From the IMG/VR virus record IMGVR_UViG_3300006033_000047, positions 1-42,328 of that record: a stretch of 42,328 nt of DNA; one strand, 5' to 3'. Both the position numbers and the translations under genes were made by a program. This stretch comes from a virus. Shown here piece after piece: positions 5,194 to 18,022 of this stretch. The first letter of the stretch is position 1. Every line of letters starts with the position of its first letter. The notes under the pieces were generated by a model. It was not told the DNA's origin. It did not search any database and saw nothing but the letters and a program-made list of their open reading frames with translations.

Positions 5194-5688
5194 ATGGCCC
5201 CAGGTCTTGCTGAAATGTTCAGCGCAGCCATAAAACAGCTTTTAAAAAGGGAAGGTCGCGGAGGCCAGGTTGTACTTGCCGAAAGGCTCGGAATCAAGAA
5301 GGCCCATTTGAGCAACCTGCTGGCCGGCCGATCCGGTTGGCCTGACTCCATGAAGGAGCGGGTCGCACATATCTATGGATATAGTGTGGCCGAGCTGTTG
5401 CTCCTGGGCGAGCAGCTTCTCCAGACAGGGGTGTGGTTCCCGCACGTCCGGGCCGTCCAGCAATACGCGCCGAGGTCAATGGAACGCTTGGAGGCGATCA
5501 TTCGCCTGGCGGCCGCCGACAAAGGAATCGGCCTCACCAACATGCTGTTCTCCGCCAAGACCATCCCGCACATATTCCCATCCACGACGGAGGACTACAC
5601 CTCCGGCCGCATCCAGGACTCCGAGGTGTATGACAACATCCTCGGCGTCTGCGAAAAGATTTGTCCTACCCGAAAAAACTCCTACTAA
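5194..5688 (+). CDS. CI-like XRE-family repressor, 164 aa
   Basis: Likely maintains lysogeny by repressing the early promoters. VVLAERLGIKKAHLSNLLAG near residues 25-45 is a helix-turn-helix, followed by a helical segment (ERVAHIYGYSVAELLLLGEQ). No S24/LexA-type protease signature (catalytic Ser-Lys dyad) is visible in the C-terminal half, so SOS-triggered self-cleavage is not supported. The start at 5194 is preferred because AAGGAGG lies 7 nt upstream; an upstream ATG at 5134 gives an implausible extension. It is divergent from the Cro-like gene. Confidence 0.78.
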   Translation: MAPGLAEMFSAAIKQLLKREGRGGQVVLAERLGIKKAHLSNLLAGRSGWPDSMKERVAHIYGYSVAELLLLGEQLLQTGVWFPHVRAVQQYAPRSMERLEAIIRLAAADKGIGLTNMLFSAKTIPHIFPSTTEDYTSGRIQDSEVYDNILGVCEKICPTRKNSY

Positions 5689-5714
5689 AAATTTTCGTTT
5701 AGAAGATAAAAAAG

Positions 5715-5755
5715 TGACCAAACCTAGTTGACAAAGGTTTGGCCACTGGTGTACT
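5715..5755 (+). promoter_or_regulatory. Rightward early promoter embedded in an operator palindrome
   Basis: CCAAACCT (5718-5725) and AGGTTTGG (5735-5742) form a perfect 8-bp inverted repeat. After one mismatch, GTG and CAC extend it outward. The centre contains a consensus -35 TTGACA (5728-5733). TGTACT at 5750-5755 is a fair -10 box at 16-nt spacing. Transcription would start near 5763, just before the structured RNA at 5767 and the rightward early genes. The right half-site GTTTGGCC also occurs at the leftward promoter. Confidence 0.55.
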
Positions 5756-5766
5756 TCTGGACTCAC

Positions 5767-5903
5767 GGAAGGCAGGGACGACCGAGGGTCGGACAAGCAG
5801 GTGGAAGCCGCAGAGGAGTTTTAAAAGCACCTAGCGGATCAGAAAAGAGCCCCCTGCCCGGTAGCTTACCCAAAGCAGGTTCGACTCCTGCCCTTGTCTT
5901 CCG
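5767..5903 (+). ncRNA. Candidate structured RNA with a tRNA-like T-arm
   Basis: The ends pair in an uninterrupted 11-bp helix, GGAAGGCAGGG (5767-5777) with CCTTGTCTTCC (5892-5902), including two G-U pairs. A 5-bp stem with a TTCGACT loop (GCAGG/CCTGC, 5875-5891) follows directly; GGTTCGACTCC matches the universal tRNA T-arm consensus and the E. coli selC T-arm. A D-arm-like hairpin CGACC-GAG-GGTCG lies at 5779-5791. The 83-nt middle holds AGGTG/CACCT, CCGC/GCGG and GGTA-GCT-TACC pairings but no standard anticodon arm. At 137 nt it is too long for a tRNA and too short for tmRNA. A degenerate or mimic tRNA, a Y-RNA-like (YrlA) RNA or an attP derived from a tRNA are alternatives. G5903 sits where a discriminator base would be, with no encoded CCA. 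Confidence 0.55.
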
Positions 5904-5948
5904 CTTCTTTGACAAACGAATACCAACCGACCGAGGGAGATCAGCGGC

Positions 5949-6074
5949 GTGAAGGCCCAGGCCCCGGTCCCAACCAACATCGCAAAGCGTGGGTGCGCTC
6001 CCTGCGGTGGTACAAAGCTACAAGCGTCGAGGAACCGATGGAACACGTCATACACAAATACGCGTTGCCGGTAA
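5949..6074 (+). CDS. Possible small CxxC protein, 41 aa
   Basis: A GTG start with GAGGGAGA upstream opens a 41-codon frame with CAPC near its middle. It overlaps the next gene by 37 nt in another frame. No family is recognised. It is supported only by the ribosome site and the Cys pair. Confidence 0.3.
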   Translation: MKAQAPVPTNIAKRGCAPCGGTKLQASRNRWNTSYTNTRCR

Positions 6075-6307
6075 GCGGGATAATTGAACTTGAGTTGCCG
6101 GAGGGTTCTACGTTTTTGACCGTGGCGGACCAGCACAACAAGCCTGTGCTGTATGTGAAAAAACCCAGGCATGAGATGAAAACAAAAAGATTCGAGGTAT
6201 TCCCCGTCCTCACCGGCGGAGTCGTATTTTCCGCGTCAACGTGGAGCTACATCGGGACAGTTTTACTGAATAGCGAGTCCTTCATCGTTCATTACTTCTA
6301 CAGATAG
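6038..6307 (+). CDS. DUF7352-like phage protein, 89 aa
   Basis: Starts IHKYALPVSGIIELELPEGS and ends with YIGTVLLNSESFIVHYFY, the beginning and end typical of a small beta-rich phage protein family (DUF7352-like: IHKYPL, LPEGA, YIGT, FHVF). The function of the family is unknown. It is the first well-supported gene of the rightward early operon. GAGGAACC precedes the ATG. Upstream in-frame codons overlap the structured RNA and are not used. Confidence 0.7.
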   Translation: MEHVIHKYALPVSGIIELELPEGSTFLTVADQHNKPVLYVKKPRHEMKTKRFEVFPVLTGGVVFSASTWSYIGTVLLNSESFIVHYFYR

Positions 6308-6554: not shown

Positions 6555-6755
6555 ATGGCACCAAAATACGACATAACGTGGGGCCCCGGAGCAGCAACGT
6601 GCTTCCCCGCCGGCTACAACAGGTCCAACCTCGTGGACATATCGTGCATCGGAGAATACTGGGCAACTTTTCTTAATCAAGAAACCGGCGAGATAGTTTA
6701 CTGCTCGAAGTTTTACGCAGACTTGCAAGCGGAAATCGCCGGAATGGATTCGTGA
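6555..6755 (+). CDS. Hypothetical early protein, 66 aa
   Basis: Small protein with no recognised family. Three Cys residues are dispersed, not in CxxC pairs. TAGGAG lies about 7 nt before the ATG. It ends just before a G+C-rich hairpin (6760-6783). Confidence 0.6.
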   Translation: MAPKYDITWGPGAATCFPAGYNRSNLVDISCIGEYWATFLNQETGEIVYCSKFYADLQAEIAGMDS

Positions 6756-6759
6756 CCTC

Positions 6760-6783
6760 GCGGGCCCCACCTCGGGGCCCCGC
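6760..6783 (+). terminator. G+C-rich hairpin after the 66-aa gene
   Basis: GCGGGCCCC and GGGGCCCCGC pair with a single bulged G and a short loop (ACCTC). There is no T-run, so it may be an attenuator or RNA-stabilising hairpin rather than a full terminator. Confidence 0.4.
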
Positions 6784-6787
6784 AATC

Positions 6788-6887
6788 AAAGACGCCTCCA
6801 ACAGAAACGGCTTGGGATTACAAGAGAGACATATCGATGATGTTGGTCGGACGGGGCTTGTGGCCGTGCCCCGTTGGAGGCGTCTTT
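6788..6887 (+). other. 100-nt element closed by a 15-bp perfect inverted repeat
   Basis: AAAGACGCCTCCAAC (6788-6802) and GTTGGAGGCGTCTTT (6873-6887) are exact reverse complements. Inside, ACGGGGC (6851-6857) and GCCCCGT (6868-6874) offer a competing 7-bp hairpin that overlaps the outer right arm. The region holds no gene. It could be a terminator/antiterminator switch or a stable small RNA before the next gene. The sequence TTTCGTT follows the outer stem. Confidence 0.5.
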
Positions 6888-6931
6888 CGTTGCGGGGAAA
6901 CCCGCGCAAACCATTAATCTGTGAGGATTCT

Positions 6932-7279
6932 ATGCGCGGCAAAAAAGTTGAAAGGCGGCTCATTCGTTTCGAGGCATCCAGACGTTTCATGCAGGAATAT
7001 CATCTCTTGCGGATGGTTCAGCACGACCTGGCCATCGTTGACATCCGGCACAAATTTGAAACCGCGGAGATCATTGCCTACGGCGACCAATTCCCGGTTG
7101 TCCGCCAGGGCGACATCATTCCCGAGTACCGCGTTACCATGGCCGAGAATGACGAAGACATCTGGGAGATCACGTTCACCCCGGTAGGCGACACCACGGC
7201 GCCGGCCCTCCGCAAAACCATCGTTCTTGAAAGCGAAAAAGACCCCCGGCCCGCGGCCATTACCATCAGCTTCAACTAA
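6932..7279 (+). CDS. Hypothetical early protein, 115 aa
   Basis: Basic N-terminus (MRGKKVERRLIRFEASRRF) followed by a beta-rich body with many acidic residues. No family recognised. GTGAGGA precedes the ATG; upstream in-frame codons run through the structured 6788-6887 element and are probably untranslated. Confidence 0.65.
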   Translation: MRGKKVERRLIRFEASRRFMQEYHLLRMVQHDLAIVDIRHKFETAEIIAYGDQFPVVRQGDIIPEYRVTMAENDEDIWEITFTPVGDTTAPALRKTIVLESEKDPRPAAITISFN

Positions 7280-12095: not shown

Positions 12096-12707
12096 GTGGC
12101 GAGCATCAAGTTGACGAAGGAAATGCGGAGGTCCATCCGCGACAAGGTTATCGAGCGGCGGTTCGCTGAAACGGAAAAGGCCCTGCTGGAGGAGGCGGTG
12201 AGTCTGTGCTCCGGGGTCGCTTTGGGCCTTGAGATAAAAGGCGATTGGCCGAAAGGGTGGTTCAAGGAAAGGGACAAGTTCTTCATATCTGTAGACGGGG
12301 TACCCGGCAGGCTGGACGAAGTGTTTATGCACGGGGCTTCCTTGCACAGCCTCAAGAAAGGCCGCTATTGGGAGGTCCGGCTTAAAAACGATATACCAGT
12401 TTTATACCGCGAGTCTGACGGCTACCTGAAAGTGGCCCGCGACAGCGCGTTGTGGCCGCTGTTCGAGGATTTGCAGCAGCGCATCGACGCCTTTTTCGAA
12501 AAGCGGGATGAAGCGAGAGAAAAGACGGACGCCATCCTGGCCAAGTTCTCCACGGTGAAGTCGCTCCTGGACGCATGGCCCGAGATGGAGCCCTTCGTGC
12601 CCAAGGAAGCCGCGCCGCTCCCGCCGGCGCTGCCGATATACGAAATGAACAAGCTGCTCGGGCTCCCGGTCGAAGGCCGCGATCCTGTCCCGCCCGGCGA
12701 TGAGTAG
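12096..12707 (+). CDS. Nmad5-like putative nucleotide-modification protein, 203 aa
   Basis: Opens with IKLTKEMRRSIRDKVIERRF and contains a helical body and a polar C-terminus, resembling Nmad5 (nucleotide modification associated domain 5) proteins of phages. The family was defined by association with modified-base pathways; its reaction is not established. GTG start with GAGGG 7 nt upstream. The gene lies between two copies of the same terminator-like repeat, so it may be an independent cassette. The family call is by eye and tentative. Confidence 0.55.
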   Translation: MASIKLTKEMRRSIRDKVIERRFAETEKALLEEAVSLCSGVALGLEIKGDWPKGWFKERDKFFISVDGVPGRLDEVFMHGASLHSLKKGRYWEVRLKNDIPVLYRESDGYLKVARDSALWPLFEDLQQRIDAFFEKRDEAREKTDAILAKFSTVKSLLDAWPEMEPFVPKEAAPLPPALPIYEMNKLLGLPVEGRDPVPPGDE

Positions 12708-12735: not shown

Positions 12736-12834
12736 CCGGGCTACCCGCCCCGGGGGCTGGCGCCACCAGCCAGGCACGGTTGCAAACGTGCTTGTCTGTA
12801 CGTCCGGGGCGGATGCCGCGAAAAGGAGGTACTT

Positions 12835-13050
12835 ATGAAATTCATAATCGGAATTATCACAACTATTTGCATCGTTATCGTGTTCTGGCACATCGCATGG
12901 TTCTGTGTTGTCAACCTGGCCGAGCACATGGCCCGGCTCCACCGGCTCCCGCTGGAGTCCACCTACCTGTTGGCCCAGGTCATCGTGTTTGGCATCATCG
13001 GCGTGTTGGGCCTGTGCGTGTTGGCGTACCTCGGGAGGTCGAAGGGATGA
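12835..13050 (+). CDS. Two-segment membrane protein, 71 aa
   Basis: Two hydrophobic segments: FIIGIITTICIVIVFWHIAW near the N-terminus and LAQVIVFGIIGVLGLCVLAY near the C-terminus, with a short basic tail. AAAGGAGG precedes the ATG; its TGA overlaps the polymerase ATG. Function unknown; a superinfection-exclusion role is possible but unsupported. Confidence 0.65.
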   Translation: MKFIIGIITTICIVIVFWHIAWFCVVNLAEHMARLHRLPLESTYLLAQVIVFGIIGVLGLCVLAYLGRSKG

Positions 13051-16000
13051 AGCTCACAATCGACTTTGAAACCCGGTCCTGCATCAACCTGAAGGACTGC
13101 GGCGAGTGGGTCTACTCCGAGGACCCGACCACGGACATCATGTGCCTGGCGGTGAAGGAAGACGAAAAACCGGGGCGGATTTGGGTGAACCCGAAACTGG
13201 CTTTTGCCGCCGCGCACCACCTTGAGGTGGAGTCCAACGCCGGATGGGATTTGGCAGACGAACTCCCCCTGATAACCCTCGACGAAATCACCGATTTAAT
13301 CCAAAAAGCTGAACAAATAGAGGCACATAATGCGTCCTTCGAGCGCGCCATGTGGCAGAACTGTTTCTCCCGCAAATACGGCGTCCCCATGCTGCCCCTG
13401 GACAAGCTCCGCTGCTCCCTGGCCAAGGCGTCGTACCACTCGCTCCCCCGCGGCCTGGGTGAACTCTGCAAAGTCCTGGGCGTGGAGGTCCAGAAGGACG
13501 ACGTTGGCGCCGCGATCATGCGGAAGATGTGCCGGCCCAAGAAGCTGGTGCGGGCCGAGTGGAAGCCCTTCGAGGATCAATACTCCATCCCGTGGAAAGA
13601 CCTGAAGGAAATGCAGGCTTCCCTCTACGAAACCATTGCTTACGGGTGGCACCACGCCGAGGATTGGGAATGGCGCAACGTCATGGATGCGGACGCGCTC
13701 ATTCATTGGCACGAGGACCCCGACGACATCCTGGCCCTGTGTCGGTACTGCCTCCAGGACGTGGAAGCGGAGCACGCGGCGTCCAAGGCCCTGGCCGACC
13801 TACCGGCCCGCGAACTGCGGGTCTGGCAAATGGATCAGGAAATCAACGCCCGAGGACTCAACACAGACACGGAACTCGCTCACAAGATGGTCGCCATGGT
13901 CGAGCAGCACACCGCGGACCTGTTGGACGACCTGGCCACGATCACCAACGGCGAGGTGCAAAGCCCCCGCCAAACCGCCAAGTTCAAAGCGCACGTCAAC
14001 AAATCCCTGCCCGACGACCTCCAGCTCGCCGACGTGAAAGCGTCGTCCGTGCTGGCGGCCCTGAAGGACCCCCGCGTCCAGGGCGAGGCCCGGCGCCTGC
14101 TGGAAATTCGCCGGTCCCTGGCCCTGTCCAGCGTGGCCAAGTACGAAGCGATCCTCAACCGCGCGTCGATGGATGGACGGGTTCGTGGGTCCATCCTGTA
14201 CCACGGGGCGGGCACGGGGCGGTTCTCGGGCCGGGGCATCCAGCCCCACAACTTCCCCCGCGGGAAGTTCAAGGACCCGGAGCCGGCCATCGAAATGGTG
14301 CTGATGGACGATGTCGAGGGCGTGAAGGCGTATTGGGGCGACCCCATGGCCGTGGCCTCCACTTGCCTGCGCGGCGTCCTGACGCCCGGGGAGGGCAAAG
14401 AGTTCACCTGCGCGGACTTCTCCAACATCGAGGGCCGTGGCGTGGCATGGCTGGCGGGCGAGGAGTGGAAGGTCGAGTCCTTCCGGGCCTACGACAAGGG
14501 GGAGGGCGAGGACAACTACAAGCTGGCCTACAGCCGGGCCTTCAACATCCCAGTCGAATCCGTGACGAGCGACAACCGGCAGATCGGCAAGGTCATGGAG
14601 CTTGCGTGCCTGGCCGGTGACACCCCGGTATTGACGGATACTGGGTGGAAGCCGTTGGTATTGATAACAAAAACTGACCGCGTGTGGGACGGAGTCGAGT
14701 TTGTAGCCCACGGCGGGATCGCTGGACGAGGGGTAAAAGAATGTGTACGGCTCTTGGGTATTGAGGTAACACCAGACCACCTTTTCCTCATGGGGGACGT
14801 GTGGGTAACGGAGGACAAATGGGCAACTGCGGAAGATTTGAAAGAAGAACCCCGTCTCCTGCAATCGGCGCTCGATACGGCGAGCTTGTCGTCATTGCCA
14901 TCATGCGCGGAAAAATGGGCGGATGCAGAGGCATTCAGTGCAGGTGTTCTTGTGGCCGGGAAATTGTGGTGGCCGAGTCGAATCTTCGAAAAGGAGCGAC
15001 TTCCCGGTGTTCAACTTGCGGACGAGCAAAGGCAGCAGAAACCAGGACCAGGTACGGGGACATTCCACCAGGGATTCGAAGACGCCTCAATGGCAGAATC
15101 TCCAGTATCTACGGGAGATGCCTTGACGAAAACCACCGGCAGTTTCCGCAGTACGGGGGGCGGGGTATCACCGTGTTCAAACCATGGGTTGAAGACCGAC
15201 ATGCGTTCCTCCGATACCTTGCCTCTCTCCCTGGGTGCACCGACCCACAGCTTACCATCGACAGAATCAACAACAACCAAGGGTATGAACCGGGAAATCT
15301 GCGCTTCGTGTCCATCCAACGTCAGCAACACAACCGAACGAACACCAACTGGGTTGAATACCAAGGACGACGAATGTCTGGAACCGAGTTCTGGAAACAA
15401 CATTGCCCCGGGTACGCCCGGGTCGGAACCGTCCTTCGAAAGATACGGGAAGGGCGTACCCCAGAGGAGATCATCGAAGAGCAGGCCAGATGCAAGGGCC
15501 CGTATGGTGTACGATCTGGTAAATTGCGGGCCGCGTAATCGTTTCATGGTGCTCACGGAGCGCGGACCCCTGATCGTCCACAACTGCGGGTACCAGGGCG
15601 GCGTCGGGGCCTTCCAATCCATGGCCGCGGTCTACGGAGTCAAGGTGCCTGACGACCAGGCGGCCGAGCTGGTGAAGCTGTGGCGCCAGGCCCACCCCAT
15701 GGTGGTCGCCCTGTGGTACTCGCTGGAGGAGGCCGCGCTCATGGCCGTGGCGCACCCGGGCAAAGCCTACAGCTACCGGGCCATCGCGTACAAGCTGTCC
15801 CAGGACGGCCGCTTCCTGCTCTGCCGGCTCCCGTCGGGCCGGCTCCTCCATTACCCGTTCCCAGCCCTGGAAGAGGCCGAGATGCCTTGGGGCGAAACCA
15901 AGCGCGTCGTCACCTACATGGCCACCGATTCGCAGACTGGAAAGTTTGTAAAATCAAAGGGTTATGGTGGCCTCTTTACAGAAAACTGCGTCCAGGCATT

Positions 16001-16214
16001 GTCCAGGGATGTGATGGTCGAGGGCATGTTCCGGGTCGAGGAACATGGGTACCCTGTGGTCCTGACGGTCCACGACGAAGTGCTCTCCGAGCATCCGGTT
16101 GGCCATGGATCGGTTGAGGAGTTCGGCCACCTGTTGTCGGTCGTGCCCTCGTGGGCGGATGGTCTGCCCGTCGCCGCCGCTGGTTGGCGAGGAACCCGGT
16201 ATCGCAAAGGGTGA
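13047..16214 (+). CDS. DNA polymerase I family polymerase with intein, 1055 aa precursor
   Basis: The replicative family A polymerase. The N-terminus has a DEDD 3-5 exonuclease (DFETRS at residues 6-11; AHNASFE). Polymerase motif A is CADFSNIEGR (about 454-463), motif B is split by the intein (RQIGKVMELA joined to CGYQGGVGAF), and motif C is VHDE (1008-1011). Residues 521-846 are the intein, leaving about 729 aa after splicing, a normal size for phage PolA. The ATG overlaps the stop of the membrane-protein gene. Without splicing, the O-helix is broken, so the precursor should be inactive. Confidence 0.93.
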   Translation: MKLTIDFETRSCINLKDCGEWVYSEDPTTDIMCLAVKEDEKPGRIWVNPKLAFAAAHHLEVESNAGWDLADELPLITLDEITDLIQKAEQIEAHNASFERAMWQNCFSRKYGVPMLPLDKLRCSLAKASYHSLPRGLGELCKVLGVEVQKDDVGAAIMRKMCRPKKLVRAEWKPFEDQYSIPWKDLKEMQASLYETIAYGWHHAEDWEWRNVMDADALIHWHEDPDDILALCRYCLQDVEAEHAASKALADLPARELRVWQMDQEINARGLNTDTELAHKMVAMVEQHTADLLDDLATITNGEVQSPRQTAKFKAHVNKSLPDDLQLADVKASSVLAALKDPRVQGEARRLLEIRRSLALSSVAKYEAILNRASMDGRVRGSILYHGAGTGRFSGRGIQPHNFPRGKFKDPEPAIEMVLMDDVEGVKAYWGDPMAVASTCLRGVLTPGEGKEFTCADFSNIEGRGVAWLAGEEWKVESFRAYDKGEGEDNYKLAYSRAFNIPVESVTSDNRQIGKVMELACLAGDTPVLTDTGWKPLVLITKTDRVWDGVEFVAHGGIAGRGVKECVRLLGIEVTPDHLFLMGDVWVTEDKWATAEDLKEEPRLLQSALDTASLSSLPSCAEKWADAEAFSAGVLVAGKLWWPSRIFEKERLPGVQLADEQRQQKPGPGTGTFHQGFEDASMAESPVSTGDALTKTTGSFRSTGGGVSPCSNHGLKTDMRSSDTLPLSLGAPTHSLPSTESTTTKGMNREICASCPSNVSNTTERTPTGLNTKDDECLEPSSGNNIAPGTPGSEPSFERYGKGVPQRRSSKSRPDARARMVYDLVNCGPRNRFMVLTERGPLIVHNCGYQGGVGAFQSMAAVYGVKVPDDQAAELVKLWRQAHPMVVALWYSLEEAALMAVAHPGKAYSYRAIAYKLSQDGRFLLCRLPSGRLLHYPFPALEEAEMPWGETKRVVTYMATDSQTGKFVKSKGYGGLFTENCVQALSRDVMVEGMFRVEEHGYPVVLTVHDEVLSEHPVGHGSVEEFGHLLSVVPSWADGLPVAAAGWRGTRYRKG
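14607..15584 (+). other. Intein inside polymerase motif B, 326 aa
   Basis: A self-splicing element read in the polymerase frame. Block A: Cys1 in CLAGDTPVLTDTGWK. Block B: GIEVTPDHLFLM. Blocks F and G: VYDLVNCGPRNRFMVL and GPLIVHN, then Cys+1. These N- and C-terminal Hint parts account for about 90 and 30 residues. The middle 210 residues have no family likeness, are rich in Ser/Thr/Pro, and are simply the out-of-frame translation of a homing endonuclease gene (14819-15538). Insertion is after ELA and before CGYQGG. Confidence 0.9.
14819..15538 (+). CDS. HNH homing endonuclease nested out of frame in the intein, 239 aa
   Basis: Overlaps the intein in a different frame (start position 2 mod 3 against 0 for the polymerase). 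A zinc-ribbon region CRCSCG...CSTCG is followed by a linker, YGGRGITVFKPW, and the HNH-like core LTIDRINNNQGYEPGNLRFV with RQQHNRTNTN. The same architecture occurs in the free-standing gene at 16905. GGAGGA lies just before the ATG, 4 nt away, so independent translation is plausible; a GTG at 14801 is an alternative start. It starts inside the N-terminal Hint part and ends inside the C-terminal part. Confidence 0.85.
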   Translation: MGNCGRFERRTPSPAIGARYGELVVIAIMRGKMGGCRGIQCRCSCGREIVVAESNLRKGATSRCSTCGRAKAAETRTRYGDIPPGIRRRLNGRISSIYGRCLDENHRQFPQYGGRGITVFKPWVEDRHAFLRYLASLPGCTDPQLTIDRINNNQGYEPGNLRFVSIQRQQHNRTNTNWVEYQGRRMSGTEFWKQHCPGYARVGTVLRKIREGRTPEEIIEEQARCKGPYGVRSGKLRAA

Positions 16215-16908: not shown

Positions 16909-17507
16909 ACGTCGCCCATATCAAAGATTTGGACATGCGTGCATATGCTGGGCGGGCTAGGAGATTTGCCTTGTATAGGTGCCTGAACTGTGGACGGGAA
17001 TTCGAGCACTGCACGTCAAACGTAGCAATACTGAAAAGCTGCGGGTGTGCAAAAAATAAAAAGCCGTTGAAACATGGAGACGCGAAAAAGAAAAATCCTT
17101 CCGAGCATCGTAAAATTTACGCTGTATTCAGGAGTATGCACCAGCGATGTTCAAACCCGAAAAGCACCAGGTTTTCGCGGTACGGCGGGCGGGGAGTGCG
17201 CGTTTGCCCCGCTTGGTCCGATTACCAGGTCTTCAAATCTTGGGCGTTGAGCAATGGGTACGCCCAAGAGTTGCAAATTGACCGTATAGACAACGACGGC
17301 TGGTACAGCCCAGAAAATTGTAGGTGGGTTACAAAGAGGGAAAACCTAGCAAACAGGAACCTGTCCGCCGTAGGTGAACACTGTAGAAAACTTGACAAGG
17401 AGAAAGTGAAACGGATTAGACGCGAAGAAAATGTGCAATTGCTGGCGGAGGAATTCGGGGTTAGCGAAAGCCTTATCTACAAAGTTAAACGGGGAGAGAG
17501 GTGGTAA
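16905..17507 (+). CDS. Free-standing HNH homing endonuclease, 200 aa
   Basis: Same family as the endonuclease nested in the intein: an N-terminal zinc ribbon (CLNCGREFEHCTSN...CGCAKN), YGGRGVRVCPAW, then LQIDRIDNDGWYSPENCRWV with ENLANRN. A C-terminal helix-turn-helix-like tail (VQLLAEEFGVSESLIYKV) may help DNA recognition. ACAGGAGG precedes the ATG at 16905. It separates the zinc-motif gene from the ThyX-like gene and is less G+C-rich than both, as expected of a mobile insertion. Confidence 0.85.
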   Translation: MNVAHIKDLDMRAYAGRARRFALYRCLNCGREFEHCTSNVAILKSCGCAKNKKPLKHGDAKKKNPSEHRKIYAVFRSMHQRCSNPKSTRFSRYGGRGVRVCPAWSDYQVFKSWALSNGYAQELQIDRIDNDGWYSPENCRWVTKRENLANRNLSAVGEHCRKLDKEKVKRIRREENVQLLAEEFGVSESLIYKVKRGERW

Positions 17508-17509
17508 CG

Positions 17510-18022
17510 ATGAATGTGACAGTGCAGAAATTGACAGGAACCGGCCTAGCGCAGAAGGCGTGCAAGTTTACGCTGCACAGCCATGCCGATACGGAAATAA
17601 CCCTGGACAGGCTGTACCGGGCGGAGCACAGCCCGATCCGCACGCAACTCTTCTGGGTAGAAATGCTAGGAATTCCGAACTTCGTCTCTGTCCACTTTGT
17701 CCGCCATAAAGTAGGCGTTGAACATTGGGCGCAGACCATGCGGACGGACAGGGGCGCCGAGGAGATTGCGAACCGGCTGACGCCGACGAACCACGCCATG
17801 CTCGTCAACGCTCAGGCGCTCGTCAACATGGGCCGCAAGCGCCTTTGCCACAAGGCCAGCCAGGAAACCCGGGAGGTCATGGTCCTGATCCGCAAGGCGA
17901 TGTGCACGGTTGACCCGGCGCTTACCCGGTTCCTGGTCCCCGAGTGCGTCTACCGGGGCGGCGTCTGCCACGAACTCAAACCATGCGGCCAAATGGAGGG
18001 CATCGTATGGAGTCGGTCCTGA
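17510..18022 (+). CDS. ThyX-like protein, 170 aa
   Basis: Resembles FAD-dependent thymidylate synthase (ThyX): LYRAEHSPIRTQLFWVEMLG, then VRHKVGVEHWAQTMR in place of RHRxxSxNxxSxR, then NAQALVNMGRKRLCHKASQETREV matching the NxxxL...RL...AQxEIR helix. The RHR motif is altered to RHK and lacks the usual Ser, so the reaction or substrate may differ. It is shorter than typical ThyX (over 200 aa). ATG at 17510 has GAGAGGTGG upstream. An alternative GTG start lies 9 nt earlier. Confidence 0.6.
   Translation: MNVTVQKLTGTGLAQKACKFTLHSHADTEITLDRLYRAEHSPIRTQLFWVEMLGIPNFVSVHFVRHKVGVEHWAQTMRTDRGAEEIANRLTPTNHAMLVNAQALVNMGRKRLCHKASQETREVMVLIRKAMCTVDPALTRFLVPECVYRGGVCHELKPCGQMEGIVWSRS

Follow-up and report, generated by a model that had tools for sequence, protein, structure and literature searches.

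To our knowledge, only a few tRNA-like RNAs act outside translation, namely tmRNA, Y RNAs and the 3' ends of plant viruses. YrlA RNAs mimic tRNA elbows, the stacked acceptor-T helix is the part of a tRNA that is recognised by RNase P and by 3' tRNA maturation, and the C4 RNA acts at the phage immunity region. Among small phage RNAs, the M3 RNA of phi80 and the C4 precursor of P1/P7 are cleaved by RNase P (PMC11143913), and the CI RNA of P4 is a processed antisense RNA that originates from an untranslated leader (PMC4825925). Furthermore, a tRNA body has been engineered as a scaffold in which foreign RNA replaces the anticodon arm (PMC3753655), and irregular allo-tRNA-like cloverleaves were reported from soil metagenomes (PMC7609411).

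The window, i.e., the whole stretch of 42,328 bases analysed in this work, is an IMG/VR virus record with a siphophage-like genome (G000). A Prim-Pol gene, HTH genes and an early operon are present, and the structural genes lie on the minus strand. The RNA element (plus strand, 5767-5903) is located between a gene for an HTH repressor-like protein (plus strand, 5194-5688; weak Pfam matches to YdaS_toxin and HTH_31, PHROG annotation transcriptional regulators) and the first supported early gene (plus strand, 6038-6307), which matches phrog_3848 of unknown function (E 1.7e-10). A candidate ORF of 41 codons with a GTG start (plus strand, 5949-6074) was read from the sequence behind a Shine-Dalgarno-like site, GAGGGAG. 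The preliminary description had placed a consensus-like promoter just upstream of the RNA. A perfect TTGACA (plus strand, 5728-5733) could serve as the -35 box of an early promoter, but the -10 element, GTACTT/TACTTC, deviates strongly from consensus, and no promoter was found when sigma-70 sites were scanned for strictly. An inverted repeat detected in a repeat search, AGTGACCAAACCT/AGGTTTGGCCACT (5713-5747; 13-nt arms, 92% complementary), is possibly an operator that would cover the -35 box.

The thermodynamic fold of the 137-nt RNA has a minimum free energy of -55.3 kcal/mol (z -3.25), which was equalled by none of 200 shuffles. Its two ends form an acceptor-like helix of 11 bp (5767-5777 and 5892-5902) with two G-U pairs and no bulge, which stacks directly on a T-arm, GCAGG-UUCGACU-CCUGC (5875-5891). 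The bulge-free end helix on a T-arm, noticed earlier by reading alone, is thereby confirmed: within a 281-nt stretch of the predicted transcript all 11 acceptor pairs have a probability of at least 0.97, and the T-arm of 0.88. With 11 bp plus the 5-bp T-stem the stack is longer than that of a standard tRNA. The D-arm position is occupied by a hairpin, CGACC-GAG-GGUCG (5779-5791); it had been called D-arm-like, a designation that does not hold, as its loop comprises only the three nucleotides GAG and lacks the GG of a D-loop. There is indeed no normal anticodon arm, and a large imperfect arm of 61 nt, GCAGG...CCUGC (5797-5857), stands in its place. It is followed by a small variable-arm-like hairpin, GGUA-GCU-UACC (5860-5870), and by a CAAA linker (5871-5874), which sequence comparison revealed to be common to the phage RNA family described below. 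The discriminator position carries a G (5903) and no CCA is encoded.

Since GCAGG occurs twice (5797 and 5875), as does CCUGC, and since GGACAAG competes for CUUGUCU, alternative foldings of the RNA exist. A second copy of the string CGACCGAGGG (5779-5788) overlies a Shine-Dalgarno-like site at 5928-5937, and 11 nt at the end of the repressor gene (5661-5671) are nearly complementary to 5786-5796 of the RNA; both could reflect antisense pairing or chance. Base pairing between the interior of the RNA and the flanking sequence was discarded as too weak for use, 7 and 15 of 300 shuffles being equally good.

Strict T-arms are expected 0.09 times per shuffled 42-kb window, and a random site finds an 11-bp partner with a chance of 0.004; in the strict form, helix and T-arm together are expected by chance about 4e-4 times per window. 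The loci of related phages, 850 kb in all, contained four strict T-arms, none of them with an acceptor helix of 9 bp or more. With a relaxed T-loop pattern chance helices of 11 bp do arise in coding DNA, as in the group of L008. According to these models and the predicted fold, the structure of the window RNA is real.

ARAGORN predicted neither a tRNA nor a tmRNA in the window and Rfam 15 contained no model that matched the RNA at its gathering threshold; an anticodon arm with a 7-nt loop is absent, so that the RNA falls outside tRNA, tRNA-Sec and tmRNA. With tRNA-Sec (RF01852) it shares the long acceptor/T stack, the class II look, the GGAAG...CTTCCG ends and a T-arm string, ends and string being similar to those of the selC gene of Escherichia coli. 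In contrast to tRNA-Sec and allo-tRNAs it has no anticodon, and its stack is of 11+5 bp instead of 8+5 or 8/4 and 9/3. Like tmRNA (RF00023) it combines tRNA-like ends with an interior that is not tRNA; its length of 137 nt, the absence of a tmRNA match in Rfam or ARAGORN and the lack of a recognisable tag frame nevertheless bear out the earlier statement that it is not a tmRNA. YrlA and other bacterial Y RNAs offer a precedent for tRNA-elbow mimicry without decoding, but the acceptor ends of the window RNA are free. P1/P7 C4, phi80 M3 and P4 CI are likewise small phage RNAs (PMC11143913, PMC4825925). C4 and CI act at immunity regions; C4 and M3 are processed by RNase P and CI is processed, whereas processing of the window RNA is suggested by analogy. 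The engineered scaffold (PMC3753655) shows the same exchange of the anticodon arm for foreign RNA within a tRNA body, but the window RNA is natural, and scaffold-type protection of its interior would again be an analogy.

The preliminary description had called for compensatory changes in related phages. For the window RNA itself none were obtained: homologues were found neither by DNA similarity among cultured phages nor with strict end patterns in viral contigs, and the repressor and the first early gene, used as baits in viral contigs, revealed no relatives. Hence the helices of the window RNA, including the arm 5797-5857, have no covariation support of their own. Phage relatives of the window phage were obtained via the SNF2 helicase; the closest of them (L002) has neither an RNA at the syntenic position nor the repressor, and the family model introduced below found nothing of note in 45 SNF2-helicase-related loci. 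The matches in cultured phages were set aside: they were either tRNAs, some of them degenerate, or T-arm strings that lack the D-arm of the family.

Compensatory changes were, however, found in a family of RNAs that resemble the window RNA. A selC-like end pattern recovered genuine selC fragments (L084, L085) together with L082, L083 and L086, the last of which contains an RNA that no tool named. L082 (6525-6658) and L083 (1947-2044), minus strand, are phage tRNAs with insertions of 65 and 35 nt in the anticodon loop. The 23-nt string CAAAGCAGGTTCGANTCCTGCCC of the window (CAAA-GCAGG-TTCGANT-CCTGC-CC) matched only L086, L087 and L088 among viral contigs; all three possess a closing helix on the T-arm, an interior of 100-150 nt and no anticodon, and none was named by ARAGORN or Rfam. 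In genome contigs a related string identified L091, with the same type of RNA, L089, a miniature of 71 nt that ARAGORN designates tRNA-Ala, and L090, a T-arm-like string inside a reading frame without acceptor helix, which is irrelevant. L087 and L091 have the D-arm string TGGCGTTCTGGCGAAAACG in common, the core of which occurred in 15 viral loci: 13 with full RNAs, one with a truncated RNA (L103) and one chance match in coding-like sequence (L092), which was rejected. A looser T-arm string added L127, L131, L136, L149/L161, L151, L169 and L202, as well as L129 and L181, whose D-arms are doubtful; the 10-bp helix of L106/L144 was dropped because it extends over coding-like sequence. In total, the follow-up yielded about 20 such RNAs from unrelated phages. 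A reading of L086 and L088 as mini-tmRNAs with an in-frame "tag" (GCAAAGTCRTAA) was abandoned, as the tag is not conserved among the other members.

The members share a plan of a 7-11-bp acceptor helix, a D-arm, a variable interior of 13 to 138 nt, an AAA linker and a T-arm, and lack an anticodon loop. Their D-loops contain GG, as in the contact of the tRNA elbow with the T-loop. For 18 aligned sequences two-sided changes were observed in 19 of 22 pairs, with a covariation score of 0.752 against 0.203; in this set some acceptors and all H2 helices had been picked for pairing, and 11 sequences placed by the D-arm string and the T-arm only, with the acceptor left unfitted, therefore provide the cleaner test. 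Here 93% of the cells pair, although L101 and L102 have imperfect acceptor pairing, and nine of the ten acceptor columns show two-sided changes; the score of 0.505 compares with 0.170 for shuffled sequences and at most 0.173 for slid controls. By sequence comparison, the family is real and its stems are confirmed by compensatory changes. It is also uncatalogued: Rfam gave no match at the family RNA sites in 12 member loci, ARAGORN called none of the named members except L089, and no description matching such phage RNAs was found in the open-access literature.

The window RNA has the acceptor/T half of this family (11 bp on GCAGG/CCUGC with the loop TTCGACT, compared with 7-11 bp and TTCRA in the family), and the AAA linker, as CAAA directly before the T-stem; it also occupies a leader position and contains CAAAGCAGGTTCGANTCCTGCCC, the diagnostic string. 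It differs in the D-arm, for which the family has about 5 bp and a loop of 7-8 nt with GG followed by A. The helix H2, which abuts the AAA in most but not all members, is also missing; GGUA-GCU-UACC stands there instead, and a forced H2 is 8 kcal/mol worse. Of the whole RNA our covariance model R1 recovers only 5872-5891, i.e., the AAA and the T-arm, with 21.6 bits (E 0.0015); its long-interior training members L086 and L088 likewise score only 25-28 bits. In view of the absent GG D-loop and the lack of a close homologue membership falls short of proof; judged from the shared elements, it is rather probable. On account of the deviating D-arm we treat the window RNA as working like the family without classing it as a member.

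The threshold of the R1 model was reached in 12 of the 21 phage records with such RNAs, mostly in single copy. In 295 other genomes of the host phylum of L091 the RNA was absent, while it was present in phages. Judged by terminases (one weak match in 21 family records) and polymerases (two weak matches in 21), there is no relationship between the family phages and that of the window. The gene context differs widely among the RNAs, a few of which have hardly any nucleotides on either side. Neighbouring genes include those for a YqaJ recombinase, a VRR-NUC and a Mom-like protein, and no partner gene is common to all. Several begin 2-9 nt past a stop codon within operons, a position from which release would need processing; the RNA of L169 ends 3 nt ahead of a start codon. 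In L086 (11941-12639) the family RNA lies immediately 5' of the Mom-like DNA modification gene. The phage of L093 carries, besides its family RNA, a second RNA of 99 nt (1893-1991) with tmRNA-like ends and an encoded CCA, which scores 49.1 bits with the tmRNA model. In L173 (4278-4572) and L174, T-arm strings follow one another several times in a tandem arrangement in which canonical tRNAs are absent.

We give about even chances to the interpretation that 5767-5903 is an anticodon-less tRNA-like leader RNA which is released by host tRNA enzymes and acts through its interior. Located next to the repressor, it would form the 5'-terminal part of the early transcript, and host enzymes recognising the stacked acceptor-T helix would cut it from the polycistronic transcript, RNase P on the 5' side where a leader exists and 3' trimming or RNase Z opposite. 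The same enzymes might stabilise the released RNA, and the phage-specific interior arm would carry the activity; by analogy with C4 and P4 CI, it might regulate by antisense pairing or by binding a protein. The preliminary description had considered a tRNA mimic that recruits processing or charging enzymes. The fold and the covarying anticodon-less family speak for the former, while charging by a synthetase is unlikely because the acceptor sequences of the family vary freely. More tentatively, and with rather less confidence, unrelated phages may use the anticodon-less tRNA body as a natural scaffold that host tRNA enzymes excise from polycistronic transcripts and protect, with an interchangeable interior as effector. 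The window RNA would then represent a diverged case, situated in an immunity region. A phage family in which acceptor, D- and T-arms covary but the decoding part is missing would imply a further use of the tRNA body, and would offer a defined set of sequences for examining the influence of RNase P and of tRNA maturation on phage transcripts.

The main rival, which we regard as unlikely, is an element that acts in cis within the leader of the early operon, such as an HK022 put-like antiterminator or a translation or transcription switch, that is not released and whose T-loop fold is incidental. The position where the early transcript is predicted to begin, the absence of a terminator downstream, the alternative foldings via GCAGG/CCUGC and via GGACAAG against CUUGUCU, and the second copy of CGACCGAGGG at the Shine-Dalgarno-like site would suit such an element; yet the repeats are short and possibly fortuitous, a T-arm with a stacked acceptor resembles free-ended tRNA bodies, and the variety of gene contexts of the related RNAs, including those with hardly any flanking sequence, speaks against it. 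Resemblance to selC, raised before as a degenerate gene, extends to the ends GGAAG...GCAGGTTCGACTCCTG...TCTTCCG, which resemble those of the E. coli gene and of the fragment L084, and to the hairpin with long stem and short loop, which recalls the Sec D-arm. tRNA-Sec was also the sole tRNA-type match in Rfam, but the covariance search that had been proposed gave a sub-threshold 14.5 bits, against a threshold of 47, and on another pairing. Had a host selC gene, or another gene for a class II tRNA, taken up an insertion in its anticodon arm and decayed to a functionless copy, the helix would moreover be expected to be broken, but it is intact over 11 bp, and related anticodon-less RNAs are kept by covariation; we consider this origin improbable.

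A chance arrangement or a DNA-level inverted repeat without any RNA role has to be weighed because the element was picked by eye out of 42 kb and because relaxed T-loop matches with 11-bp helices occur in coding DNA. The strict expectation, the four helix-free T-arms of related phages, the z value of the fold and the CAAA-T-arm string common to the window RNA and the family make it highly unlikely. A tRNA-derived attP that carries the 3' end of a host tRNA would be expected to show a canonical T-arm with 7 nt behind it, and the phage has a repressor. Such an attachment site, suggested previously, must be given a very small probability: no tyrosine or serine recombinase was found in the window, which may represent a partial genome, none of 84,980 species genomes, a set that may or may not include the host, contains the exact 28-nt 3' end (5875-5902), and a complementary 5' strand would be unneeded. 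For the earlier comparison with Y RNAs, the elbow mimicry of YrlA RNAs offers a parallel; with no TROVE/Ro gene in the window or in the 21 phage records with related RNAs, and no Y-RNA match in Rfam, the chance that the element is a YrlA-type partner of a Ro protein is practically negligible.

Besides the RNA element, further features were observed in the window. A 34-bp tandem repeat of about four copies occupies the left end of the record (1-136). A long, near-perfect inverted repeat (GGGGCCCCGCAATCAAAGACGCCTCCAAC... and its complement, 6773-6902) lies at the start of an ORF (6752-7279); Rfam returned only a sub-threshold miRNA match there, which we judge meaningless. The ORF 12780-16214 encodes a PolA-like protein of 1144 aa. 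Polymerase matches cover its residues 88-611 and 935-1143, and residues 908-955 match an endonuclease family, which suggests an intein or inserted domain. Genes for a dNMP kinase-like protein (1486-2094), Nmad5 (12096-12707) and a ThyX-like protein (17501-18022) could, as predicted from their sequences, constitute a DNA base modification set.
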